Origin: Planctomyces sp.
Lineage (GTDB): Bacteria; Planctomycetota; Planctomycetia; Planctomycetales; Planctomycetaceae
Length of the DNA stretch: 64,000 bases
Reading direction: 5' to 3'
Assembly: GCA_016795105.1 (NCBI GenBank)
Contig: JAEUIH010000009.1
Location: 1-64,000 of the forward strand
Shown: piece by piece, positions 11,601 through 22,260 of the stretch
Position numbering within the stretch: the first letter of the stretch is position 1
Layout: every line of letters starts with the position of its first letter
Notes under the pieces: generated by a model
The model's input: only the letters and a program-made list of their open reading frames with translations
The model's database searches: none
What the model was told of the DNA's origin: nothing
Program-made: the position numbers and the translations under genes

Positions 11601-12907
11601 TGAGTGAATCGCGACTTGAGTGGCTGGTGCCGGGACTGCTGGAGCAAAAAGTCCTCGCACTGATTCGCTCACTGCCAAAAACGTTGCGGACTCACTTTGT
11701 ACCGGCACCAGAGACGGCCACGAAAGTGACAGCTGAACTGGATTTTGGTCGAGGAGACCTGTTGACCAGTCTTGCGGCTCGATTGTCGATCTTCAGTGGT
11801 CAGAAAATTGACCCGAGGGAATTTGATGTTTCCAGTCTTCCGGATCATCTGAGATTCAATATTCGAATCGTGGACGATGATCGCAAAACAGTTCTTGAGG
11901 GACGGAGTCTGAAGGACGTCCGGAATCAGCTGCTCGCTCAGGCTCAGGCACTGCTGCAGGCTGGTTCTTCAGCTGTGGGGTCTTCTCAGCCGGGCTCACG
12001 TACGGCCGCGACGCCTGCAATTGCTCCGGAAGAACAACAGTGGCAGCGGAAAGGATTCATGGCATGGGATTTCTTTGATGTTCCGGAGTCCATTGATATT
12101 CGCCGCGCCGGACTGGTGTTGAAATCATTTCCTTCGGTCCACGATGATGTGACTTCGGTCTCACTCATGCTGTGCCAGGACCCTCGCGAGGCGACTCGGG
12201 AACTGCGAACCGGCCTCAGGCGATTGATCTACCTGATGGAAAAGAAGCGGTTGTCATCTCAGGTTGAACACCTGCCGCAGGTCAGTCAGCTTCGGTTGTT
12301 GTCTTCATCGATCCGAGGTCTGGAGTTCGTTCATCATCTGGCGTTGCTGATGGCGGATCGTGCGTATCTGGGTGATCAGCCTCTGCCCAGAACTCGAGCG
12401 GCATTCGATCAGACCCTGAAGTTTGGGCGTAACCGAGTTGGCCTGGTGGCACAGGAATTTGTTCAGCTCATGCCTCGACTGCTGGAACAATATCATGAGA
12501 TTCGGCGAGCGCTGGAGAAGGCGAAAGGTCCAGGCTGGGAATTCCTGCTCGAGGATATGAAGCTGCAGCTTGGTGGCCTTGTGCATTCCACCTTTCTGAT
12601 TGATACACCATGGCCATGGCTGATTCAGTTTCCTCGTTACTTTCAGGCGATCGGAGTCAGGCTTCAAAGGTTGACATCCGGAGGACTGAAGACTGAAACC
12701 AGCCTTGCCCGTGACTTTCAGCCGTATCTTGCTCGGTACGAACAGCGTTTGAAGGACCATCAGAAGACAGGCCGCAGGGATCCGATGCTGGAACACTTCC
12801 GCTGGATGCTGGAAGAGTTTCGCGTCTCGTTGTTTGCTCAAAAACTCGGAACCGCCATCTCAGTGTCACCCACCAAACTGGATGAACACTGGAACAAAAT
12901 CGAATAG
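8699..12907 (+). CDS. hrpA: ATP-dependent RNA helicase HrpA (DEAH-box)
   Basis: DEAH-box RNA helicase of 1402 residues, slightly longer than Escherichia coli HrpA. Walker A GETGSGKS lies at 96-103 and DEAH at 193-196. Further helicase motifs (SAT in IITSATID, QRAGRCGR) follow, then the helicase-associated and OB-fold regions and a long C-terminal HrpA-specific (DUF3418-like) domain. A Gly/Lys/Arg-rich low-complexity linker occurs near residues 810-845 and may be an extra RNA-binding insert. The start is uncertain because no convincing ribosome binding site precedes 8699; the ATG at 8741 is an alternative. A dispersed hairpin repeat begins 2 nt after the stop codon. Confidence 0.92.
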   Translation: MTRFHEFDKSISLAMHSDQFILRRSLRGLRDAEKSGKPFDRALEKFTRLLTKSCEQRESRVKLIPPLTWDEQLPVCERRAEIADAIRDNQVVIVCGETGSGKSTQLPKIALELGRGVGGIIGHTQPRRIAARSIAARLAEELRCPLGQQVGYRIRFQDATGPNTLIRLMTDGIMLAETQADRFLDQYDTIIVDEAHERSLNIDFLLGYLKRLLPKRPDLRVIITSATIDAERFSDHFSSHGRPAPVMMVSGRTYPVEIRWRPLDSSDSNTESRSRNQPNDSAPEPRDWLDGVSDAVDELTEIDSGHILVFLPTERDIREAERRLSGRRYPGDSPKHATEIVPLYGKLSSGDQDKVFRACSHRRIVLATNVAESSLTVPGIRYVVDTGTARISRYSARSRMQRLPIEPISRASANQRAGRCGRVAPGVCIRLYSADDFAQREDFTAPEIQRTNLAQVILRTVSLQLGDIQEFPFLDPPKPTTVREGYRTLEELGALDADGRLTQIGKQMSRLPVDPRISRMILAAIDEHAVPEVLAIASALEIQDPRERPIEKQQAADEAHAQFKHRDSDFMTLLNLWDTWHERSHKLSGGQLRKWCQQNFLSWLRMREWVDVHRQLRELLSESDDDLMRKAGSLHPVNDRKNDFAAIHRALMTGLLANIAFQNVEGDYTGAGGNRLTLWPGSALHPKGPKWLVAAELVETSRRYARTVARIQPEWIEPLASHLISRDYFEPHWDPEAGNVMVFEKVSLWGMPIVPRRKITLARVNPAKSREMLIQHGLVEFGLLHGATDDEDSSDYDEEEAFLRRGQKARVRPGQAAPKSGSGTGGGNSGSKGRRPGGKGWGSDFPFLRHNHEILQQLREVQAKTRHHHLLPEDDVQFEFYASQIPEECVDRDRLRRWYHRISTRDNKLLQFDLNQFSDEAQRTEHARLFPESAQFGMMHLPLAYQLDPGSEADGVTVTVPQEGVGQLSESRLEWLVPGLLEQKVLALIRSLPKTLRTHFVPAPETATKVTAELDFGRGDLLTSLAARLSIFSGQKIDPREFDVSSLPDHLRFNIRIVDDDRKTVLEGRSLKDVRNQLLAQAQALLQAGSSAVGSSQPGSRTAATPAIAPEEQQWQRKGFMAWDFFDVPESIDIRRAGLVLKSFPSVHDDVTSVSLMLCQDPREATRELRTGLRRLIYLMEKKRLSSQVEHLPQVSQLRLLSSSIRGLEFVHHLALLMADRAYLGDQPLPRTRAAFDQTLKFGRNRVGLVAQEFVQLMPRLLEQYHEIRRALEKAKGPGWEFLLEDMKLQLGGLVHSTFLIDTPWPWLIQFPRYFQAIGVRLQRLTSGGLKTETSLARDFQPYLARYEQRLKDHQKTGRRDPMLEHFRWMLEEFRVSLFAQKLGTAISVSPTKLDEHWNKIE

Positions 12908-12908
12908 A

Positions 12909-12935
12909 GTAGCTTGGGCATTCCTGCCCGAGCCG
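12909..12935 (+). repeat. REP-like hairpin element, copy 1 (GTAGCTT subtype)
   Basis: It can fold into an 8-bp stem with one G-T wobble: CTTGGGCA, loop TTCC, TGCCCGAG. It begins 2 nt after the hrpA stop codon. The same core GGGCATTCCTGCCC recurs at 50592-50773 (four copies) and 61602-61625. Here the outer pairs are CT/AG, whereas the other subtype has GA/TC. Confidence 0.85.
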
Positions 12936-13185
12936 CAGAGACTTTAAACGGTGAGTTGCGTGAGGTCATTGATTCCGGCGTTTTGCGCAGCGAGGACTGC
13001 AGTTTTTTGATTCCGACTTCATACAGTGTGTAGCCAGCGTGATTGGAAACCACGAAATCCCCGTCAATTCAACTGGCTGCCACTAAATCCCGTGAAGAAC
13101 CCGAATGCTGCTTGAACAATTTCCAAGGGCTTTTGAAGACATCAGACCAACATGCTGACGTATTGACAGTAAGCTGAACTCAATA

Positions 13186-13278
13186 GCCCCAACCGACCCC
13201 GCGTCGGTTGAGCCAAGGTCTGGCAACTAGAAACACGACCGCAGCACTCAACAGGCCCCACTTCGCCTTCACGCCGAT
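13186..13278 (+). repeat. structured repeat, plus-strand copy A
   Basis: It begins with a perfect 8-bp hairpin (CAACCGAC, loop CCCGC, GTCGGTTG), followed by a 20-nt tail ending TGGCAACTAG, then a degenerate second hairpin of the form TTCGCC-TTCAC-GCCGAT about 71 bp after the first. It closely matches the copy at 13348-13439. The tail matches 16 of 20 positions in the minus-strand repeats at 13481-13741. Confidence 0.8.
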
Positions 13279-13347
13279 CAACCGCATTGATCAACACAGA
13301 TCAACAACCGACACAGTTCAGACTTTGGCAAAAAAACAAGCACACAG

Positions 13348-13439
13348 GCCCCAACCGACCCCGCGTCGGTTGAGCCAGGGTCTGGTAACTAGAAACACAA
13401 TCGCTACGCACAACAGGCCCCCTTCGGCTTCACGCCGAT
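13348..13439 (+). repeat. structured repeat, plus-strand copy B
   Basis: Second copy of the element at 13186-13278, offset by 162 bp. It has the same perfect CAACCGAC/GTCGGTTG hairpin with loop CCCGC and the tail TGGTAACTAG. A second hairpin unit follows about 71 bp later (TTCGGC-TTCAC-GCCGAT), and that unit resembles the minus-strand family more closely than the first. Confidence 0.8.
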
Positions 13440-13480
13440 GGAGCCCAGGTTTCACGACGTTCGGGCATCCAAAACAGCGG

Positions 13481-13741
13481 CTCGCTAGTTGCCAAACCGG
13501 CGCTCCACCGGCGTAGAGCCGGGTGGGGGCGACGGGCGACGTGTTGCGGCTCGCTAGTTGCCAAACCGGCGCTCCACCGGCGTGAAGCCGGGTGGGGGCG
13601 ATGGGTGATGTGTTGCGGCTCGCTAGTTGTCAAACCGGCGCTCCACCGGCGTAGAGCCGGGTGGGGGCGATGGGCGGCGTGTTGCGGCTCGCTAGTTGTC
13701 AAACCCGCGCTCCACCGGCGTAGAGCCGGGTGGGGGCGGTT
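13481..13741 (-). repeat. 69-bp tandem repeat array, four units, minus orientation
   Basis: Units begin at 13481, 13550, 13619 and 13688, an exact 69-bp period; the fourth decays near 13741. Read on the minus strand, each unit folds as CCACC(C)GGC, loop TCTAC or TTCAC, GCCGGTGG, then a 20-nt tail ending TGGCAACTAG. Compared with the plus-strand copies, two stem positions differ on both sides so that pairing is kept (A-T to C-G and A-T to G-C). The array faces the plus-strand copies head to head. Confidence 0.88.
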
Positions 13742-13887
13742 GGTAGCGGGCGACGATCTTCCGGGAGTTTGTTTCAGGAAATCAAATGCTGATCCCCAGA
13801 CGCGTTCCTCATTCTTCTGACATACTCAATCTGATGGCATCCCTGAATCTGCTGGACAACAAACGCTTACCGGCAGCTCTGTCGTGT

Positions 13888-14112
13888 TCAGTAATAACAG
13901 TGCTCGTGGTTGTAATCGATAGCGAAAGGCACAGGATTGATGATGCCCCTGCTTGTGTCACTCGTGACAGAACGGCAGCCTGAAGAGCCGAAGCAAGCGG
14001 AACCGATTACGAGCACGAGCATCGCTGCGCTGACCACGAGCACGATGGGACGGAATGATCCTTCAGCCAAAACCGTCGCGGTAGTTTCATGCCCGCTTTC
14101 AGGCACTCCCAC
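13888..14112 (-). CDS. possible small membrane or lipoprotein, unknown
   Basis: Weakly supported 74-residue frame with a GTG start. It has one hydrophobic segment (about residues 22-40) that ends in Cys-containing sequence (IGSAC, SSGC), compatible with a membrane anchor or lipoprotein signal; the rest is polar. A G-rich stretch lies too close to the GTG to be a good ribosome binding site. It stands alone in a repeat-rich region and no family is recognised. It could be chance. Confidence 0.28.
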   Translation of the reverse strand: MGVPESGHETTATVLAEGSFRPIVLVVSAAMLVLVIGSACFGSSGCRSVTSDTSRGIINPVPFAIDYNHEHCYY

Positions 14113-14123
14113 ATCCCCCTGTG

Positions 14124-14155
14124 ATTCTTTCGTGTGGTTTGTGTCTTTCGTGGTT
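14124..14155 (-). repeat. short ACGAAA-type dispersed repeat motif
   Basis: On the minus strand the sequence reads AACCACGAAAGACACAAACC followed by ACACGAAAGA, an imperfect internal duplication of a (C)ACGAAA unit. I recall similar motifs as dispersed intergenic repeats in several bacterial genomes, but only this one copy was found here, so the identification is tentative. Confidence 0.35.
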
Positions 14156-14425
14156 AAATTGCCAGCCCTGACTGCGATTGGAGTTCAAGTGCAGAACCAC
14201 TGAGTCTTTGTTCGATGGCATCCAGCGTGCATATGTGATGCCAGGGTTCGACATCACGGCGGAGGGGGACAGTATTTTGGTTTTTTGTGTCACCAAAATC
14301 CAGGTGAACAGCGAGATTTTCAATCAGTGGGATGCAGCCATAGAATTCGCGAAGAACCCAAAATCGAAAGATATTCTGACAGAATATGTTTCCGGCTGTG
14401 TTAGACCCCGCAGGAGACGAATTTC

Positions 14426-15031
14426 TTGAGCGAATTTCCGGAAACACGTGACAGCCTGCTGGTTCAGGTTCGGGATCCCGCCAACCGGGACGCGTGGGAG
14501 CGGTTCGCACAGATTTATCGACCTGTCATCTTTCGTATTGCCATGGCTCGCGGCCTACAGCATGCCGATGCACAGGATTTGTCGCAACAGGTGCTGATGG
14601 CGGTAGCGGGGGCGATTGGTGCCTGGGAAAAACGTGACGAATCAACTCGGTTCCGGCATTGGCTGAGTCGCGTCACAAAGAACGCAATACTCAACGCGTT
14701 GATGCGCCGTCCCAGGGACAGAGCCTCCGGTGGGTCGTCTGCTGATGAACTATTGCGGGATGTTGTCGATCGTGAAGGAGTGACTTCTGTATTGATCGAG
14801 GACGAGTATCGTCGGGAGCTTTATCTGCGAGCGGCTGAAATTGTGAAACGGGAATTCCGCTCGGACTCGTGGCAGGCATTCGAAATGACGGTCGCAGGAA
14901 ATGTGGGGATCGAGGAAGTGGCAGCAGCATTCGGCAAGAGCATCGGAGCGATCTACACAGCTCGCAGCCGAATCATGTTTCGACTTCGGGAAGTCATTTC
15001 TCAAATTGGCGAGGGGGAGCAAGACTCATGA
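14426..15031 (+). CDS. ECF-type RNA polymerase sigma factor
   Basis: Sigma-70 family factor of the extracytoplasmic-function type, 201 residues. Region 2 is recognisable (YRPVIFRIAMARGLQHADAQDLSQQVL) and region 4 follows near residues 150-195 with a helix-turn-helix (VEEVAAAF-like, here IEEVAAAFGKSIGAIYTARSR). The start is a TTG at 14426, supported by AGGAG nine nt upstream. Its TGA overlaps the ATG of the following kinase gene by 4 bp, so the two are translationally coupled. Pairing an ECF factor with a Ser/Thr kinase is a known planctomycete arrangement, which suggests that the kinase controls this factor. Confidence 0.88.
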   Translation: MSEFPETRDSLLVQVRDPANRDAWERFAQIYRPVIFRIAMARGLQHADAQDLSQQVLMAVAGAIGAWEKRDESTRFRHWLSRVTKNAILNALMRRPRDRASGGSSADELLRDVVDREGVTSVLIEDEYRRELYLRAAEIVKREFRSDSWQAFEMTVAGNVGIEEVAAAFGKSIGAIYTARSRIMFRLREVISQIGEGEQDS

Positions 15032-18000
15032 CATTGACTCATCAAAACTGCACTACCCCGGACCAGCTTCTTGCGTTATTGCGAGGCGGGCTGAGTTCAG
15101 ATGACGAGACTCAGCTGCAGATGCATCTGGACGAATGTACGTTCTGTCGAGAGCGACTCGAAACGGCTGCGGCAGACGTGACATCATGGAATGAAGCGGG
15201 GCGGTTCTTAAGGCGGGAAGCTGTACATGAAGTGATCGAGGATTCCGGTTGTGACCGTGAAGAAGTAACTCAATGGTCAGCGAGAATCCGACAGGTTCTT
15301 GACTCACTTGCGCCAACAGACGACCCGGAGTCGCTGGGACGCATTGGCGGTTATGAAGTGACCGGCGTCGTAGGTGCGGGTGGAATGGGGGTTGTGCTCA
15401 AGGCTCACGATCGTTCGCTGGACCGCATCGTTGCGATTAAGGTCATGGCGATTCATCTTGCCAGCAGCGGTTCAGCTCGCAGGCGATTTGCGCGAGAAGC
15501 CAAGGCTGCGGCGGCCGTTCTTCACCCCAATGTGATTGCAATTCACAGTGTCGCCAGCACAGATGATTGTCCGTATTTAGTGATGCCTTATGTACGCGGA
15601 GCGTCGCTGCAGAAACGAATTAACTCACAGGGGCCACTGCCGCTCAAAGACACGTTGCGGATCGGTTCGCAGATCGCTGCGGGACTTGCCGCTGCACACG
15701 GGCAGGGGCTGGTTCACCGAGACATCAAACCGGCGAACATCCTGCTTGAAGAAGGTGTCGAACGAGTCACCATTACTGATTTCGGCCTGGCACGAGCCGT
15801 CGATGACGCATCAATGACGTGCAGTGGAGTCATCGCCGGAACGCCGCAATACATGTCCCCCGAACAGATCCGTGGCGAGTCGATTGATGCACGAAGCGAT
15901 TTGTTTTCACTTGGCAGCGTTTTGTATGCCATGTGTACTGGTCGTTCGCCGTTTCGCGCAGAAACTACGTATGGAGTTCTTCATCGCATCGCCAACGACA
16001 GTCCGACTCCAGTCTGTGAAGTGAACTCAGATGTTCCGATCTGGCTTGGTCGGGTCATTGAACGATTAATGGCCCGGCGACCTGCAGATCGTTTCGAATC
16101 TGCCACTCAGGTGGCTGAATTGCTCGAAGGCTGTCTGGCTCATGTGCAGCAACCCACTGCGATATCACTTCCGGCCTCGGTGGTTGCGCTGGAAAACAGT
16201 CAAAGAAGTGGATCAGGCATTCCGCCTGTCGGGTTGATGACTCGATTGTGGAAGACTGTGACAGAGTACTTTGACAGGCCGGAAGCCAAATCCTCGACAA
16301 ACATGGACAAGCGTCCGCAATCGAACGGGATTCGTCGGCCACCGATTGCCAGGCTTATGGCCGCTTCGGCGTTTGCGTTCGTTCTGATCCTTGCCGGTGT
16401 CGTGGTTGTGCTGGAGCTGAACAAAGGAACGCTGACGATCGAGTCAGAACTGGAAAACGTTCCCATCCGGATCATTCAGGGCGACAAAGTTGTAGATCGA
16501 CTGACGGTGACCAGGTCCGGCAATTCAGTTCGTGTCGCTGCAGGGACCTACGTCGTGGAACTGGATACAGAACTGGATGGCATGACGATTGAGAATGATC
16601 AGGTCCTGTTGAAGCGTGGTTCGACTGAACTCGTCAGGATTCGACATTCAACAACAGAGGGCAACTCAACTGTCGCGGCAGCCCGTAACCGCTTTGAAAC
16701 GCCGGAAGCGCTCATGAAGTACGCTGCGGACTGTCAAAACAGCGACGACACTGCTGGCTTTATGGCGTGCTGGACTGACGAGCCAGTAAGGCAGTTTGCA
16801 ACCTCATACCTCGTGATGTCAGTTATGATGCTGCAGGAATTTGAGAACGATCCTTCGTCATTCAATGCGCCTGGATATGACGAGCAAAGGGCAGAATTGG
16901 GGAGAATACTCTCCGAAGAAATTAAAGACAAAGACGCGGCGATCAGTGTTTCGGCTTTGACACTTGCGCATAAAGAAATTGCTGACAAAGCCATGAATGA
17001 TCTGGAGAAAACGGCGAAGGCAACCGTAGAAAGTCCACTGGTTCAAATGCTCGCGACTCTGACCGTAGACCACCTGAAAGATCCCCGTCGCTTTGTTGCA
17101 AGAATCAACGCGCTGCATGACAAATTTCAGGAGCCGGATGAAGAGCAGGACCAGCATGTCTTCAATTACACGGTTGAACAGGATGGAGACAAGGGAGTTG
17201 CCACCGATACGACGAGGGGAAACAAATTCGGATTGATCAAAACCGAAACTGGCTGGCGAATCAACGACCTGTGGTATGGACTAAAGTCCCAGGAAGCCCC
17301 CGCTGAAACGGCCGAGTCTACTGAACAACGACCTGAGTTACTGCAGGGAGTTTGGGAATATACTTCGGTTGAGTCAGACGGTGTGATCACGGAGTACACG
17401 ACGTTGAAGTCTCAGACGTCATCTTTCCAGCTGACAATTCAGGGTGACCGATGGATGGTGAATGCCGGAATTGGCAGTGGGGGCCATCGTGTAAAGATCG
17501 AAGGGAATCAGCTCACGTTCTACGGGATGACATCCCCCAACGGCATGACATCATCGTTACCGGGCCTGAACAACAACACTGAAGTGCCAACGATCGGCTA
17601 TGGACTCTTCAGGCTCGAAGGCGACTCTCTGGTTTACCTCATGACACCAACTCACGTCATGACACCAGGGATGCCGGGCGACGACGCCACCGGGCAGAGT
17701 GAAATGCCAATCAGGATGCCCGAGACGTTTGAAACGAGGGGAACGCAGAACAATGTCTTTCGTTTACGGAGAGTGAGAGCGAACGAAGCACAGGGAGATG
17801 GGCTCAATTCGGCAAATCGAGTTCCGCCCCCAACGTCTTCTCCCGAATTTCCGCCCGTCAGAATCGTGGTTCATGACGAAGAAGGCAGACCGCTGGAAGG
17901 TGTGCAGGTAAGTTTATTCCAGGTGCCAACGAAAGAAGACGGGAAGATTGTTGAGATCGGCGAGACGTCTGATGCTCAGGGCCTTGCAGTCAATCGCAGG

Positions 18001-19389
18001 TTGCCGTTTGGTCACTACGAAATTTCCGCAAGGACGATGGATGGATGGTATTTGCCGGGACACGGAAGCCGCATTAATGTCGAATTCGAGAAGGGATTCG
18101 ACCTGACTTTGGTCGCGCCGGCACCACGCCGAGTTGGAAAATTGATCATTGGTTCGGACCTGGGAATTCGGTCCACATTAATCAGTGAGTTGCGATTTGG
18201 AGAATTGCAGGAGACTCATGGAATCGGTTACTCGGTCGGCTATGCTCCGGAACCGGAAGCAGATCGACCGGACAGCGATACTCAGGCAGGAAATGCGGTA
18301 TCGCCTTCAGGCTTTGCATCTTCACGCAACGGCAACTATGAGTCATTTCCGACGGTCGCGAATGGAATCGAGCAGGTGGGTGCTGAGATTCGGCTTGAGA
18401 TCTCCAGGACAATTCAGCAGCCGGCTTTGACTTCATCGCAGCATGTCAACACAGAATGGCAATGGTCCCCCGGTAACACGACGACGTTCTCCCATCGCTA
18501 CCTGATTGTTGAGGGAACGGCGCGTGGCGTTGAGGATGGTGTGTCTCAAGGTAAATCGCTTGATCGAAATCCTGCTGAAGGGAGCGAGTTCTTTCGTTTT
18601 TCCAGCGCCAATCATCGGGTGGGTGGGGCGTTGCTGTCACTGAGTGAGCCATGGGAGTTGCCGCTCGAACTGGACATACCGACCGGAAAAGTTCGTGTGT
18701 TTGTTGAGCGATTTCTTGGGCGTCCGAATGACGTCGTGCTGAGATCGTTGAGTTGGCGATCTCAGGGCAATCAGCCGGAGTTGTGGTTGCACGCCAATAT
18801 CCGACGCCAGTCCGCCTGGATCGAGCGGATCATTGATACAACGGGCTGGACGTATTCTGTGCCGGGCGAAGATGGCTCGACGATCTCCGGGCATCTACTT
18901 CAGCGGGAACATTCATTGCAGCCTGGTGAAATCTTCGAACTATGGCCAAAGACAAATCACGTGGAAGCCGCGCGGGTGAGCTCATTTGAAGCTCGAACAC
19001 TCGATGAAGTGACGTCCGTGTTCAACGAAGAGACTCGGAAGTTGAGGATGGAGTTATTTCATCCGGCAATTCCCGATTTGACCCCGGAACAATTGAAGTC
19101 TGCAATGCTCGATTCTGCAGCAGCGTATCGGAGTCAGGGCAAGTTGGGCATTCCATTCGCACTGGAATCATCGGTTAACGCGAATCGTCTGGTTGAGGAA
19201 TTGAAATTTGTTCCCATGACCGGAGCGACATCAGAGAATTTCAGGCAGATTATGCCATCGATGCAGTACGAGGATTCGCTCCGGAATGCAACGGTCGTAG
19301 TACTTCCGAAGGCCGAGATTCGTTACAGCCGTGACGGCTGGTCCTCGCCGGCCTGGGGTGAGATTCATCCGCCTGTCACAGGAACATGA
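15028..19389 (+). CDS. membrane Ser/Thr protein kinase with anti-sigma zinc finger and sensor domains
   Basis: Giant regulator of 1453 residues. The ATG at 15028 follows GGGGGAG and overlaps the sigma-factor stop. Residues 1-60 hold a zinc-binding anti-sigma motif (H33, C37, C40). The kinase domain spans about 108-370, with the glycine loop GAGGMG at 116-121, Lys138, HRD at 230-232 and DFG at 251-253. One membrane segment lies near 444-464. The extracytoplasmic part contains a TIGR03067-like domain beginning QGVWEYTSVE near 772 and a carboxypeptidase-regulatory-like domain near 950-1030. Expected role: to hold or release the neighbouring ECF factor in response to an envelope signal. The frame ends at a TGA (19387) that falls where a second TIGR03067-like domain should have its conserved Trp, and the same frame continues open to 19746. 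Confidence 0.87.
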   Translation: MTLTHQNCTTPDQLLALLRGGLSSDDETQLQMHLDECTFCRERLETAAADVTSWNEAGRFLRREAVHEVIEDSGCDREEVTQWSARIRQVLDSLAPTDDPESLGRIGGYEVTGVVGAGGMGVVLKAHDRSLDRIVAIKVMAIHLASSGSARRRFAREAKAAAAVLHPNVIAIHSVASTDDCPYLVMPYVRGASLQKRINSQGPLPLKDTLRIGSQIAAGLAAAHGQGLVHRDIKPANILLEEGVERVTITDFGLARAVDDASMTCSGVIAGTPQYMSPEQIRGESIDARSDLFSLGSVLYAMCTGRSPFRAETTYGVLHRIANDSPTPVCEVNSDVPIWLGRVIERLMARRPADRFESATQVAELLEGCLAHVQQPTAISLPASVVALENSQRSGSGIPPVGLMTRLWKTVTEYFDRPEAKSSTNMDKRPQSNGIRRPPIARLMAASAFAFVLILAGVVVVLELNKGTLTIESELENVPIRIIQGDKVVDRLTVTRSGNSVRVAAGTYVVELDTELDGMTIENDQVLLKRGSTELVRIRHSTTEGNSTVAAARNRFETPEALMKYAADCQNSDDTAGFMACWTDEPVRQFATSYLVMSVMMLQEFENDPSSFNAPGYDEQRAELGRILSEEIKDKDAAISVSALTLAHKEIADKAMNDLEKTAKATVESPLVQMLATLTVDHLKDPRRFVARINALHDKFQEPDEEQDQHVFNYTVEQDGDKGVATDTTRGNKFGLIKTETGWRINDLWYGLKSQEAPAETAESTEQRPELLQGVWEYTSVESDGVITEYTTLKSQTSSFQLTIQGDRWMVNAGIGSGGHRVKIEGNQLTFYGMTSPNGMTSSLPGLNNNTEVPTIGYGLFRLEGDSLVYLMTPTHVMTPGMPGDDATGQSEMPIRMPETFETRGTQNNVFRLRRVRANEAQGDGLNSANRVPPPTSSPEFPPVRIVVHDEEGRPLEGVQVSLFQVPTKEDGKIVEIGETSDAQGLAVNRRLPFGHYEISARTMDGWYLPGHGSRINVEFEKGFDLTLVAPAPRRVGKLIIGSDLGIRSTLISELRFGELQETHGIGYSVGYAPEPEADRPDSDTQAGNAVSPSGFASSRNGNYESFPTVANGIEQVGAEIRLEISRTIQQPALTSSQHVNTEWQWSPGNTTTFSHRYLIVEGTARGVEDGVSQGKSLDRNPAEGSEFFRFSSANHRVGGALLSLSEPWELPLELDIPTGKVRVFVERFLGRPNDVVLRSLSWRSQGNQPELWLHANIRRQSAWIERIIDTTGWTYSVPGEDGSTISGHLLQREHSLQPGEIFELWPKTNHVEAARVSSFEARTLDEVTSVFNEETRKLRMELFHPAIPDLTPEQLKSAMLDSAAAYRSQGKLGIPFALESSVNANRLVEELKFVPMTGATSENFRQIMPSMQYEDSLRNATVVVLPKAEIRYSRDGWSSPAWGEIHPPVTGT

Positions 19390-19746
19390 GAACTGGTGTC
19401 GGTGGAAAAGGGCGGAGAATCGCTTGCACAGGAGGCCTTCGAGCAGTGGCAGCTGGAGCATGCGGGCTGGAAGCAGCTCACTATTGATGGAACCTCAGTA
19501 CGAATGTCAGACGAACATGCTACGACATTCGATGTTCACGTTGACCACGATGCAACCCCGGCCCCCGAGTACCGGCTGAGTCATCAAGGTGAGACGAAGT
19601 ATGAGGGAATTCTGATGGGGAACGGATTTGTTGACAACACTCAGCTGGTCATTGCCATTGATCCCGAAGGCGGCACAAAGGTGCGGACATTCAAGACGAG
19701 TGATGGCAGGACTACGTGTTTGAGTTATCGCCGTGTAACAAAGTAG
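19390..19746 (+). pseudogene. severed C-terminal TIGR03067-like domain of the upstream kinase
   Basis: This stretch is in the same frame as the kinase and is separated from it only by the TGA at 19387-19389. Reading through gives VTGT-stop-ELVSVEKGG, which matches the start of a TIGR03067-like domain (GxW-E-x-x-SVE). The internal paralogous domain of the same kinase has QGVWEYTSVESDG at the corresponding place. The remaining 118 codons are open and look intact (for example the GILMGN and LSYRRV segments). A GTG at 19396 could in principle restart translation, but no good ribosome binding site precedes it. It is best read as a recent nonsense split, a sequencing error or a read-through stop. 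Confidence 0.7.
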
Positions 19747-19752
19747 CAGTGG

Positions 19753-20484
19753 TTAGATCAACCGCAGCGCAGAACACGTTTGTTGATATGAGAGCTCAAG
19801 GTCAAGAGAGACGGACAGATCATTACTGAGCCAGATTGGAAGCACTGGCAATCGTTGGCCGACAGTCATTGGATACGCCCACGACTCAAATCGCGATCGA
19901 TTCGCCAACTGGTGACTGCGGCAGGTGACAGCATAGGTCGCTGGCCGATGTGTGGCGAATGCCGGGTCGGACTGGCCAAAGACTTCGAGCACTTCGCAAT
20001 ACAGATTAAATTGCTTCACGGTTACGAGGTCAACAATTGAAACGCAGACCTTCTTTTGTAGAAGGGCGGCGCACTTCGAGACAAATGCCTGACGAGCCTC
20101 CGGGCGATCCTTGTTTGCGGGACTGACGAGTTCAATGGCGGCTACCAGCTCTCGACCTCTCTGCTGATCAAAAATCAGCACTTCGTATTCGTAGTTCTCA
20201 GTCGGATCGAGTTCCAGCGTCAGAGTCGGTTCCGGGGGAGTCCATGTTGCAGTGGAGCCATCTGAGCCGGAAGTACCCGAGCCGAAACCATTTTCCCCTT
20301 CAACATCGAACGTACACACATCAACTTCGAAGCTTTTTCCGAGATGAACTCGAGGCTCGGCTGTGTATTGGTCAGGCAGCGATTTGCAAAGATCCATGAC
20401 AATCGTCATGGGGCAGCCACCGTGAAAACCCTCCCATGAACCCTTATTAAAAGTCGGTGGTCGAAAATGATCCAACAATGGCAT
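19753..20484 (-). CDS. DUF4058 family protein
   Basis: Protein of 243 residues matching DUF4058, a family common in planctomycetes and cyanobacteria and without an established function. Recognisable segments are the N-terminal MPLLDHFRPP, the central VLIFDQQRGRELVAAIELVSPANKDRP and the following KCAALLQKKVCVSIVDLVT. The start is supported by GGAG nine nt before the ATG, and a TATATAAT box lies about 25 nt further upstream. It converges on the kinase gene with a 6-bp gap. Confidence 0.8.
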   Translation of the reverse strand: MPLLDHFRPPTFNKGSWEGFHGGCPMTIVMDLCKSLPDQYTAEPRVHLGKSFEVDVCTFDVEGENGFGSGTSGSDGSTATWTPPEPTLTLELDPTENYEYEVLIFDQQRGRELVAAIELVSPANKDRPEARQAFVSKCAALLQKKVCVSIVDLVTVKQFNLYCEVLEVFGQSDPAFATHRPATYAVTCRSHQLANRSRFESWAYPMTVGQRLPVLPIWLSNDLSVSLDLELSYQQTCSALRLI

Positions 20485-20802
20485 TGGGCGTCTCCATGGG
20501 GAAAATTATATAGGAGTTCGCTGACGGTGCGAGTGAAATTCGCGAGCACGTTGTCAATGATTGGACTGTATCGGCTTCGGTAAGATCGCAGTGACGTGGG
20601 GAGTTCTTCAGCTCGCGTTCACAGTCTTTTCTCGAGAAAGCAGTCGACGAGGGCGATCCCGATCTTTCGAAAACGAAATGAATGGCATGATCCCCTTTGG
20701 CGAAACGCGCGAATCAGGGTACACTCTGCGTCCCGAAGTCCTCAGGGTCGAGGAAATTCGTTGCGTTTGACCAGTGCTCTGCTTCTCGTGTTTTGACTTC
20801 TT
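20485..20802. other. divergent intergenic region upstream of rimO
   Basis: Short frames here (for example 20561-20770) have no ribosome binding site or recognisable composition and are not called. The region holds the rimO promoter described separately and a TATATAAT box for the divergent DUF4058 gene. Nothing else is seen. Confidence 0.5.
20697..20725 (+). promoter_or_regulatory. sigma-70-type promoter for rimO-pgsA
   Basis: TTGGCG at 20697-20702 and TACACT at 20720-20725 are separated by exactly 17 nt, about 77 nt before the rimO ATG. This is a good vegetative promoter by sequence; no experimental support. Confidence 0.5.
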
Positions 20803-22260
20803 ATGACATCACTTCCAATTATCGATTTGAATTCACCCGGCGCCGGTTCAGGCGGTTCTCCTCTGATTCTGGGGCAGGGTGACGGCACAGGACCACGTAC
20901 ATCTAAAGGCACTTACGCGTTTGTCAGCCTTGGGTGCCCGAAGAACCTTGTCGACAGCGAGAAGATGCTGGGATCGCTGGCGATCGATGGTTACACGCTT
21001 GTTTCCGATCCAAACGGAGCAGACTTTGTTATTGTCAATACGTGCGGCTTCATTGAGAGCAGTCGTGCGGAATCTCGGTCCGTAATTCAGGAAATGCTGG
21101 ACCTGAAAAAGGCTGGAGGCACCAAAGGCGTCATTGTCGCCGGATGTCTTCCTCAGCGGCTTGAGGAAGGCGGACTCCTGAAGGAAATGCCTGAGATCGA
21201 TCACGTTGTGGGTGTCTTTGGACGCGATGAAATCAGTCGAGTTGCCGATCGACTTGTGGGTGGAATGCGGGAACAGAGAGAGCTCTTTCGTCCGGCGCCG
21301 ATCAAAGCGATGGATGACAGAGCGCGATTGAGAATTACTCCACAGCATTTTGCGTATCTGAAGATCTCCGAAGGCTGTGATCGCACCTGCACCTTCTGTT
21401 CCATCCCGGGAATGCGTGGAAAGCACGTCACCAAGCCGATTGAGATGGTGCTGGAAGAAGCTCGTGAGCTGGTCGCCGATGGTGTGCGAGAGCTGATTAT
21501 TGTTGCTCAGGACACGACCTACTATGGTCTGGATCTCTACGGTGAAGTTCGGCTTGCTGAACTGTTGCGGCAGCTCCACGATGTAGAAGGTCTGGACTGG
21601 CTGCGATTGATGTACCTCTATCCGGTGAACTTTTCAGATGAACTGATTGATGTCATCGCAGGTTCACCTCTGATCCTGCCATACCTCGATATGCCACTGC
21701 AGCATATCAGTTCCGCTGTATTGAAGCGGATGCAGCGACGAGTGAATTCAGATCAGACGCGCGAGCTGGTCTCAAAGCTGCGTGAACGAATTCCGAATCT
21801 CGTTCTGCGAACGACTTTCATTGCAGGGTTTCCGGGAGAAACCGACGAACAGTTTGAAGAGCTCCGACAGTTCGTTGAGGAGACTCGCTTCGAACGCATG
21901 GGTGTCTTCACATACTCGCTTGAACCCGGAACGCCGGCCGTTAAGCTCGATGGGCATCTTCCAGAAGACGTTAAAGAGGCTCGCCGGGATGAGCTGATGG
22001 CGCTTCAGCAGGAGATTGCATTTGAGCATGCCGATTCACTTGTGGGATACGAACTGGACGTCATGATTGACGAACAGATCGAAGACGGTGTCTGGGCAGG
22101 TCGCACGTTTGCAGACGCACCGGAGATTGATTCGACCGTGTTTGTAAGTGGTGAGGATCTTCAGCCGGGGGACCTTGTTCCGGTGGAGATCCTGGAGAGA
22201 CGCGACTACGACCTGATCGGCGTTGTGTCAGAGCAGCTTGAGGAAGTTGACGAGGAGTAG
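20803..22260 (+). CDS. rimO: ribosomal protein S12 methylthiotransferase RimO
   Basis: Radical-SAM methylthiotransferase that modifies an aspartate of ribosomal protein S12. It has 485 residues. An N-terminal extension of about 35 residues precedes the UPF0004 domain (SLGCPKN with C45, NTCGF, AGCLPQR). The radical-SAM cluster motif is C192-x3-C196-x2-C199. A C-terminal TRAM domain closes the protein. The N-terminal SLGCPKNLVDSE signature distinguishes RimO from MiaB. pgsA begins at its stop codon, forming a two-gene unit. Confidence 0.94.
   Translation: MTSLPIIDLNSPGAGSGGSPLILGQGDGTGPRTSKGTYAFVSLGCPKNLVDSEKMLGSLAIDGYTLVSDPNGADFVIVNTCGFIESSRAESRSVIQEMLDLKKAGGTKGVIVAGCLPQRLEEGGLLKEMPEIDHVVGVFGRDEISRVADRLVGGMREQRELFRPAPIKAMDDRARLRITPQHFAYLKISEGCDRTCTFCSIPGMRGKHVTKPIEMVLEEARELVADGVRELIIVAQDTTYYGLDLYGEVRLAELLRQLHDVEGLDWLRLMYLYPVNFSDELIDVIAGSPLILPYLDMPLQHISSAVLKRMQRRVNSDQTRELVSKLRERIPNLVLRTTFIAGFPGETDEQFEELRQFVEETRFERMGVFTYSLEPGTPAVKLDGHLPEDVKEARRDELMALQQEIAFEHADSLVGYELDVMIDEQIEDGVWAGRTFADAPEIDSTVFVSGEDLQPGDLVPVEILERRDYDLIGVVSEQLEEVDEE

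Follow-up and report, generated by a model that had tools for sequence, protein, structure and literature searches.

The closest described systems to the locus reported here are the planctomycete loci in which a gene for an ECF sigma factor lies directly upstream of, and overlaps, the start of a gene for a membrane-type multidomain Ser/Thr kinase with a mosaic of C-terminal domains. One domain of relevance is TIGR03067 (Planc_TIGR03067), which is beta-rich, carries a G-x-W motif and is known in other planctomycete proteins and kinases; a literature search on TIGR03067 found nothing. Lipocalins and fatty-acid-binding proteins, which form calycin barrels, also have a G-x-W motif in their first strand. 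In nonsense-mutation pseudogenes and truncated alleles, one substitution produces an in-frame stop at a position where homologues carry a sense codon (PMC2916853, PMC7918605), and read-through has been argued for many of the in-frame stops that stand alone in a bacterial gene (PMC7918605).

The locus was found in a window of 64,000 nucleotides (the whole stretch of DNA analysed) from the genome of a Planctomyces sp. (G000), and its features are listed in Table 1. The TGA of the sigma factor gene (15029-15031) overlaps the ATG at 15028, which is most likely the kinase start, in the form ATGA, an arrangement which suggests that translation of the sigma factor and of the kinase would be coupled. 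A weak carboxypeptidase-regulatory-like domain is also present in the kinase protein. Upstream of the sigma gene are found a tandem repeat (13477-13738; 3.8 copies of 69 bp with 93% matches) and a pair of direct repeats of 74 nt (at 13186 and 13348) having inverted relations to the 69-bp repeat. With 138 matches to the protein-kinase domain over its 8.9 Mb, the genome as a whole has many kinases by bacterial standards.

Table 1. Features of the sigma factor-kinase locus (window positions).
Feature	Position	Strand	Remarks
ECF-type sigma factor gene	14426..15031	+	TIGR02937 sigma70-ECF, 51.8 bits, above cut-off
Kinase gene as now read	15028..19389	+	1453 codons, TGA end
Ser/Thr protein kinase domain	15352..16110	+	PF00069, E 1e-48; E 8.3e-50 in genome search
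Internal TIGR03067-like domain, G-V-W intact	17335..17640	+	18.5 bits, and 22.9 bits in genome search, both under curated cut-off
Conserved module F-N-x-x-T ... RYSRDGWSSPAWGEIH, immediately preceding the tail	18982..19365	+	Also in other planctomycete kinases, whether or not TIGR03067 follows
In-frame TGA in the column of the invariant Trp	19387..19389	+	TGG in G804, G957, G341 and G916
Putative cut-off C-terminal TIGR03067-like domain	19390..19743	+	118 codons, without further lesion
TAG, end of the longer frame	19744..19746	+	

The kinase frame, open from 14869, terminates at a TGA that is codon 1454 when counted from the ATG, and beyond it this frame has no stop for 118 codons, up to a TAG. 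These positions, given in the first-pass annotation of this DNA, can be read directly from the sequence, as can the internal copy of the domain (LQGVWEYTSVESDG) that it had pointed out in the same protein. When window genes are read in their wrong forward frames, only 1.4% of 118-codon stretches are free of stops, and the codon score of the tail in frame (+0.17) is comparable to that of the kinase body (+0.13), all other frames being negative. Neither a second stop nor a frameshift was found in the tail.

Several lines of evidence indicate that the tail corresponds to a TIGR03067-like domain having the TGA in place of its invariant Trp. TIGR03067 matches the tail only with a W at the TGA position (19.3 bits, E 0.001), and no such match is found with an X there; like that of the internal copy, this score falls short of the curated cut-off (40.15 bits). 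The G-x-W lies where the domain starts, and the tail aligns along its length with TIGR03067 matches; an alignment of 18 domain copies, taken from this genome and others, has the G and the W of this motif as its sole invariant columns. The first-pass annotation had placed the stop exactly on the conserved Trp of such a domain after a comparison made by eye, which proved right: the codon is TGG in the four homologues that span the junction and the residue is Trp in 18 of 18 copies. Predicted structures are beta-rich both for a typical TIGR03067 copy (pLDDT 91) and for the tail with the Trp restored (pLDDT 69.5, i.e. moderate). TIGR03067 might adopt a calycin-type barrel, given the G-x-W in its first strand and a weak resemblance, by profile and by fold, to lipocalin-like and fatty-acid-binding proteins (the best profile match, E 0.0015, is with a designed barrel; fold matches are no better than E 0.01). 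Such a structure, if adopted by the tail, would suit a ligand-sensing end domain.

Homologues aligning across the junction were found in four genomes (G804, G957, G341 and G916). The single co-linear orthologue, on a 3.1-kb contig of a genome that is 80% complete (G804), displays 47% identity over 615 aa and the same domain order, and proceeds in frame through the stop column. At the junction, G804 reads GDIHLPINGKWELVSVEQRGETL and G957 reads GEIHPPIDGTWKLHSV, with GEIHPPVTGT-stop-ELVSVEKGGESL in the window; the junction is also present in G916, where it reads IQGNW. Within the same taxonomic class, a kinase of G341, a genome belonging to the same family as G804, aligns unbroken through the stop (query 1331-1568, 254 columns, 30% identity, E 2.6e-28). 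The Trp expected at position 1454 from the first-pass annotation is thus present in all four, and the case it had raised against its own reading, that of orthologues ending naturally at this point, does not apply to the co-linear orthologue. No orthologue carrying the tail was detected in 170 genomes of the same family, scans of genome contigs for relatives found none, and no paralogue that could supply the domain occurs in the same genome.

The module directly preceding the tail is also found in kinases with no TIGR03067 behind it, some of which (such as those of G829 and G942) end soon after the module. This module (FN-T-R-FxPPIxDLT ... YRxDGxSSxxYGD) has no family name in the libraries searched, and domain order varies among the planctomycete kinases in which it recurs; counterparts of the window copy (18982-19365) occur at L013, L015, L045 and L114-L118. 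A TGA that lies within the G804 match was considered as a shared stop and rejected, since it is found ca. 75 codons later, where the short contig has a break. There (L119; G804:C742, ca. 75 codons past the Trp), the tail breaks at a TGA after KYSGV and the contig passes into another frame resembling a Clp N-terminal domain, so that either a rearrangement has occurred or the contig is chimeric.

Relaxed constraint after the stop was looked for by comparison with G804 and was not found. The part upstream of the stop is 52% identical to this orthologue and the tail 49%, with pN/pS of 0.40 and 0.38, respectively, and dN is 0.38 in the tail versus 0.36 upstream, the difference being 0.02 (95% -0.13 to +0.18). 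Toward the outgroup G957, pN in the tail is 0.506 for the window and 0.509 for G804, so that the window branch is not faster. The tail is conserved like the upstream part and has no second lesion, and the stop is therefore either young or not real. The age bound derived from the absence of a second stop is loose, with 95% upper bounds of ca. 0.16-0.20 neutral substitutions per site. From these comparisons, the tail appears to have been under normal constraint until recently, or to be so still; a very young stop, a base error and read-through would all leave the tail unrelaxed, and this result does not on its own tell them apart.

The most probable explanation is that a recent change of TGG to TGA has truncated a dispensable C-terminal domain of the kinase. 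In this scenario, the ancestral protein, encoded behind and overlapping the sigma factor gene, would have extended to the TAG at 19746, with a TIGR03067-like beta-barrel domain at its end, until a single G-to-A substitution placed a stop in this last domain of the membrane-type Ser/Thr kinase, on the Trp of the invariant G-x-W of its first strand. The present product would be a kinase of 1453 residues with all other domains, and the remnant of 118 codons would go untranslated, bar ordinary low-level leakage at UGA, which would mostly insert Trp. This supposes that the G-to-A change is real in the cell and that the shortened kinase still works; loss of the tail without loss of the kinase is plausible because related kinases carry the preceding module without TIGR03067 after it.

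The main competing explanation, which we regard as rather unlikely though to be taken seriously, is a sequencing or assembly error, in which case the cell would have TGG and make the kinase in full length, C-terminal TIGR03067-like domain included. This would agree with a tail that looks fully functional, being as strongly conserved as the upstream part and without a second lesion, with a TGA only one base away from the TGG of all homologues and with the draft status of the genome (391 contigs). Against it, the site is a G-to-A substitution outside any homopolymer, and poor assembly offers no explanation because in-frame stops occur in none of the 138 kinase-domain matches and none of the 10 other TIGR03067 places of the same assembly, a background rate judged from these two types of match which, since the locus was chosen for its stop, does not by its low value clear it. 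The tail retains its coding character, and UGA is leaky in some bacteria with Trp inserted when it is read (PMC7918605), two points in line with a functional read-through in which UGA would be partly read as Trp to yield a short and a long sensor kinase. A young stop nevertheless accounts for the conserved tail equally well, and the TGA is not conserved, the codon being TGG in 4/4 homologues. Furthermore, the only tRNA-Trp located has a CCA anticodon and the only UCA tRNA located is a tRNA-Sec, RNA 3' of the stop folds no better than shuffled sequences (z -0.25 for the 50 nt from the stop onward), and UGA is the main stop of the window, ending 19 of 29 long ORFs as well as the sigma gene just upstream. 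These data make functional read-through improbable. No suppressor tRNA was found among the tRNAs located, and an Rfam search over 12800-20900 returned nothing significant. An alternative genetic code was also considered and rejected on account of this same use of TGA as a stop, in the long ORFs and in the sigma gene. As to the three explanations put forward in the first-pass annotation, nonsense mutation and sequencing error are thus both retained while its two-form read-through has found no support, given the homologues devoid of TGA, the CCA tRNA-Trp, the lack of a downstream signal and the common use of UGA as a stop.

Traces of full-length kinase could possibly be produced through general UGA leakage rather than through a special mechanism. 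A leaky switch at the level of the species, by which conversion of the Trp codon to UGA would leave a small share of the kinase, made by read-through with Trp, with its C-terminal barrel and thereby create two sensor forms, retains some slight chance because the tail is still intact; nothing specific speaks for it, and we consider it quite improbable. Decoding of the UGA as selenocysteine by the organism's own SelB and tRNA-Sec is hardly credible. Both components were detected, the former above its curated cut-off (G000:C325:94136-95989) and the latter with a UCA anticodon and a score of 68 bits (G000:C50:12296-12386), and the organism probably makes selenoproteins; yet Trp occupies the column in all copies and Cys in none, 23% of random positions have a hairpin as good as the best bSECIS-like one at this site (-4.0 kcal/mol), and the folding value for the 50 nt from the stop onward speaks against this decoding as well. 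Finally, a GTG at 19396, 7 bases past the stop, opens a frame of 116 codons that might represent a separate small gene encoding a free-standing domain. We give this very little weight: in homologues the domain is fused in frame and none is split at this point, and a product begun at the GTG would be without the G-x-W and the first part of the first strand.

The main consequence is for annotation: the C-terminal domain of the kinase should be labelled as interrupted by a stop, and no gene should be called for the 116-codon ORF past it. If read-through were proved, the locus would be a rare instance of a bacterial sensor kinase made in two forms.

When compared to known systems, the locus resembles other planctomycete ECF sigma-kinase loci in the sigma gene lying directly upstream, the overlapping start, the membrane-type kinase and the mosaic C-terminal domains, and differs from them in its exact domain mosaic, which none of the other genomes searched in the family was found to share. 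Its TIGR03067-like copies have the G-x-W at the same place as TIGR03067 and are likewise beta-rich. Calycin barrels share with TIGR03067 copies the G-x-W of the first strand and a beta-barrel-like model, and show weak matches to them in profile and fold. The finding is in itself an ordinary one and, as in the nonsense-mutation pseudogenes and truncated alleles described (PMC2916853, PMC7918605), one substitution here accounts for the in-frame stop, homologues have a sense codon at its position and homology continues in frame past it. In contrast to an ordinary pseudogene of this type, the last domain alone would be lost and the kinase itself may stay functional.
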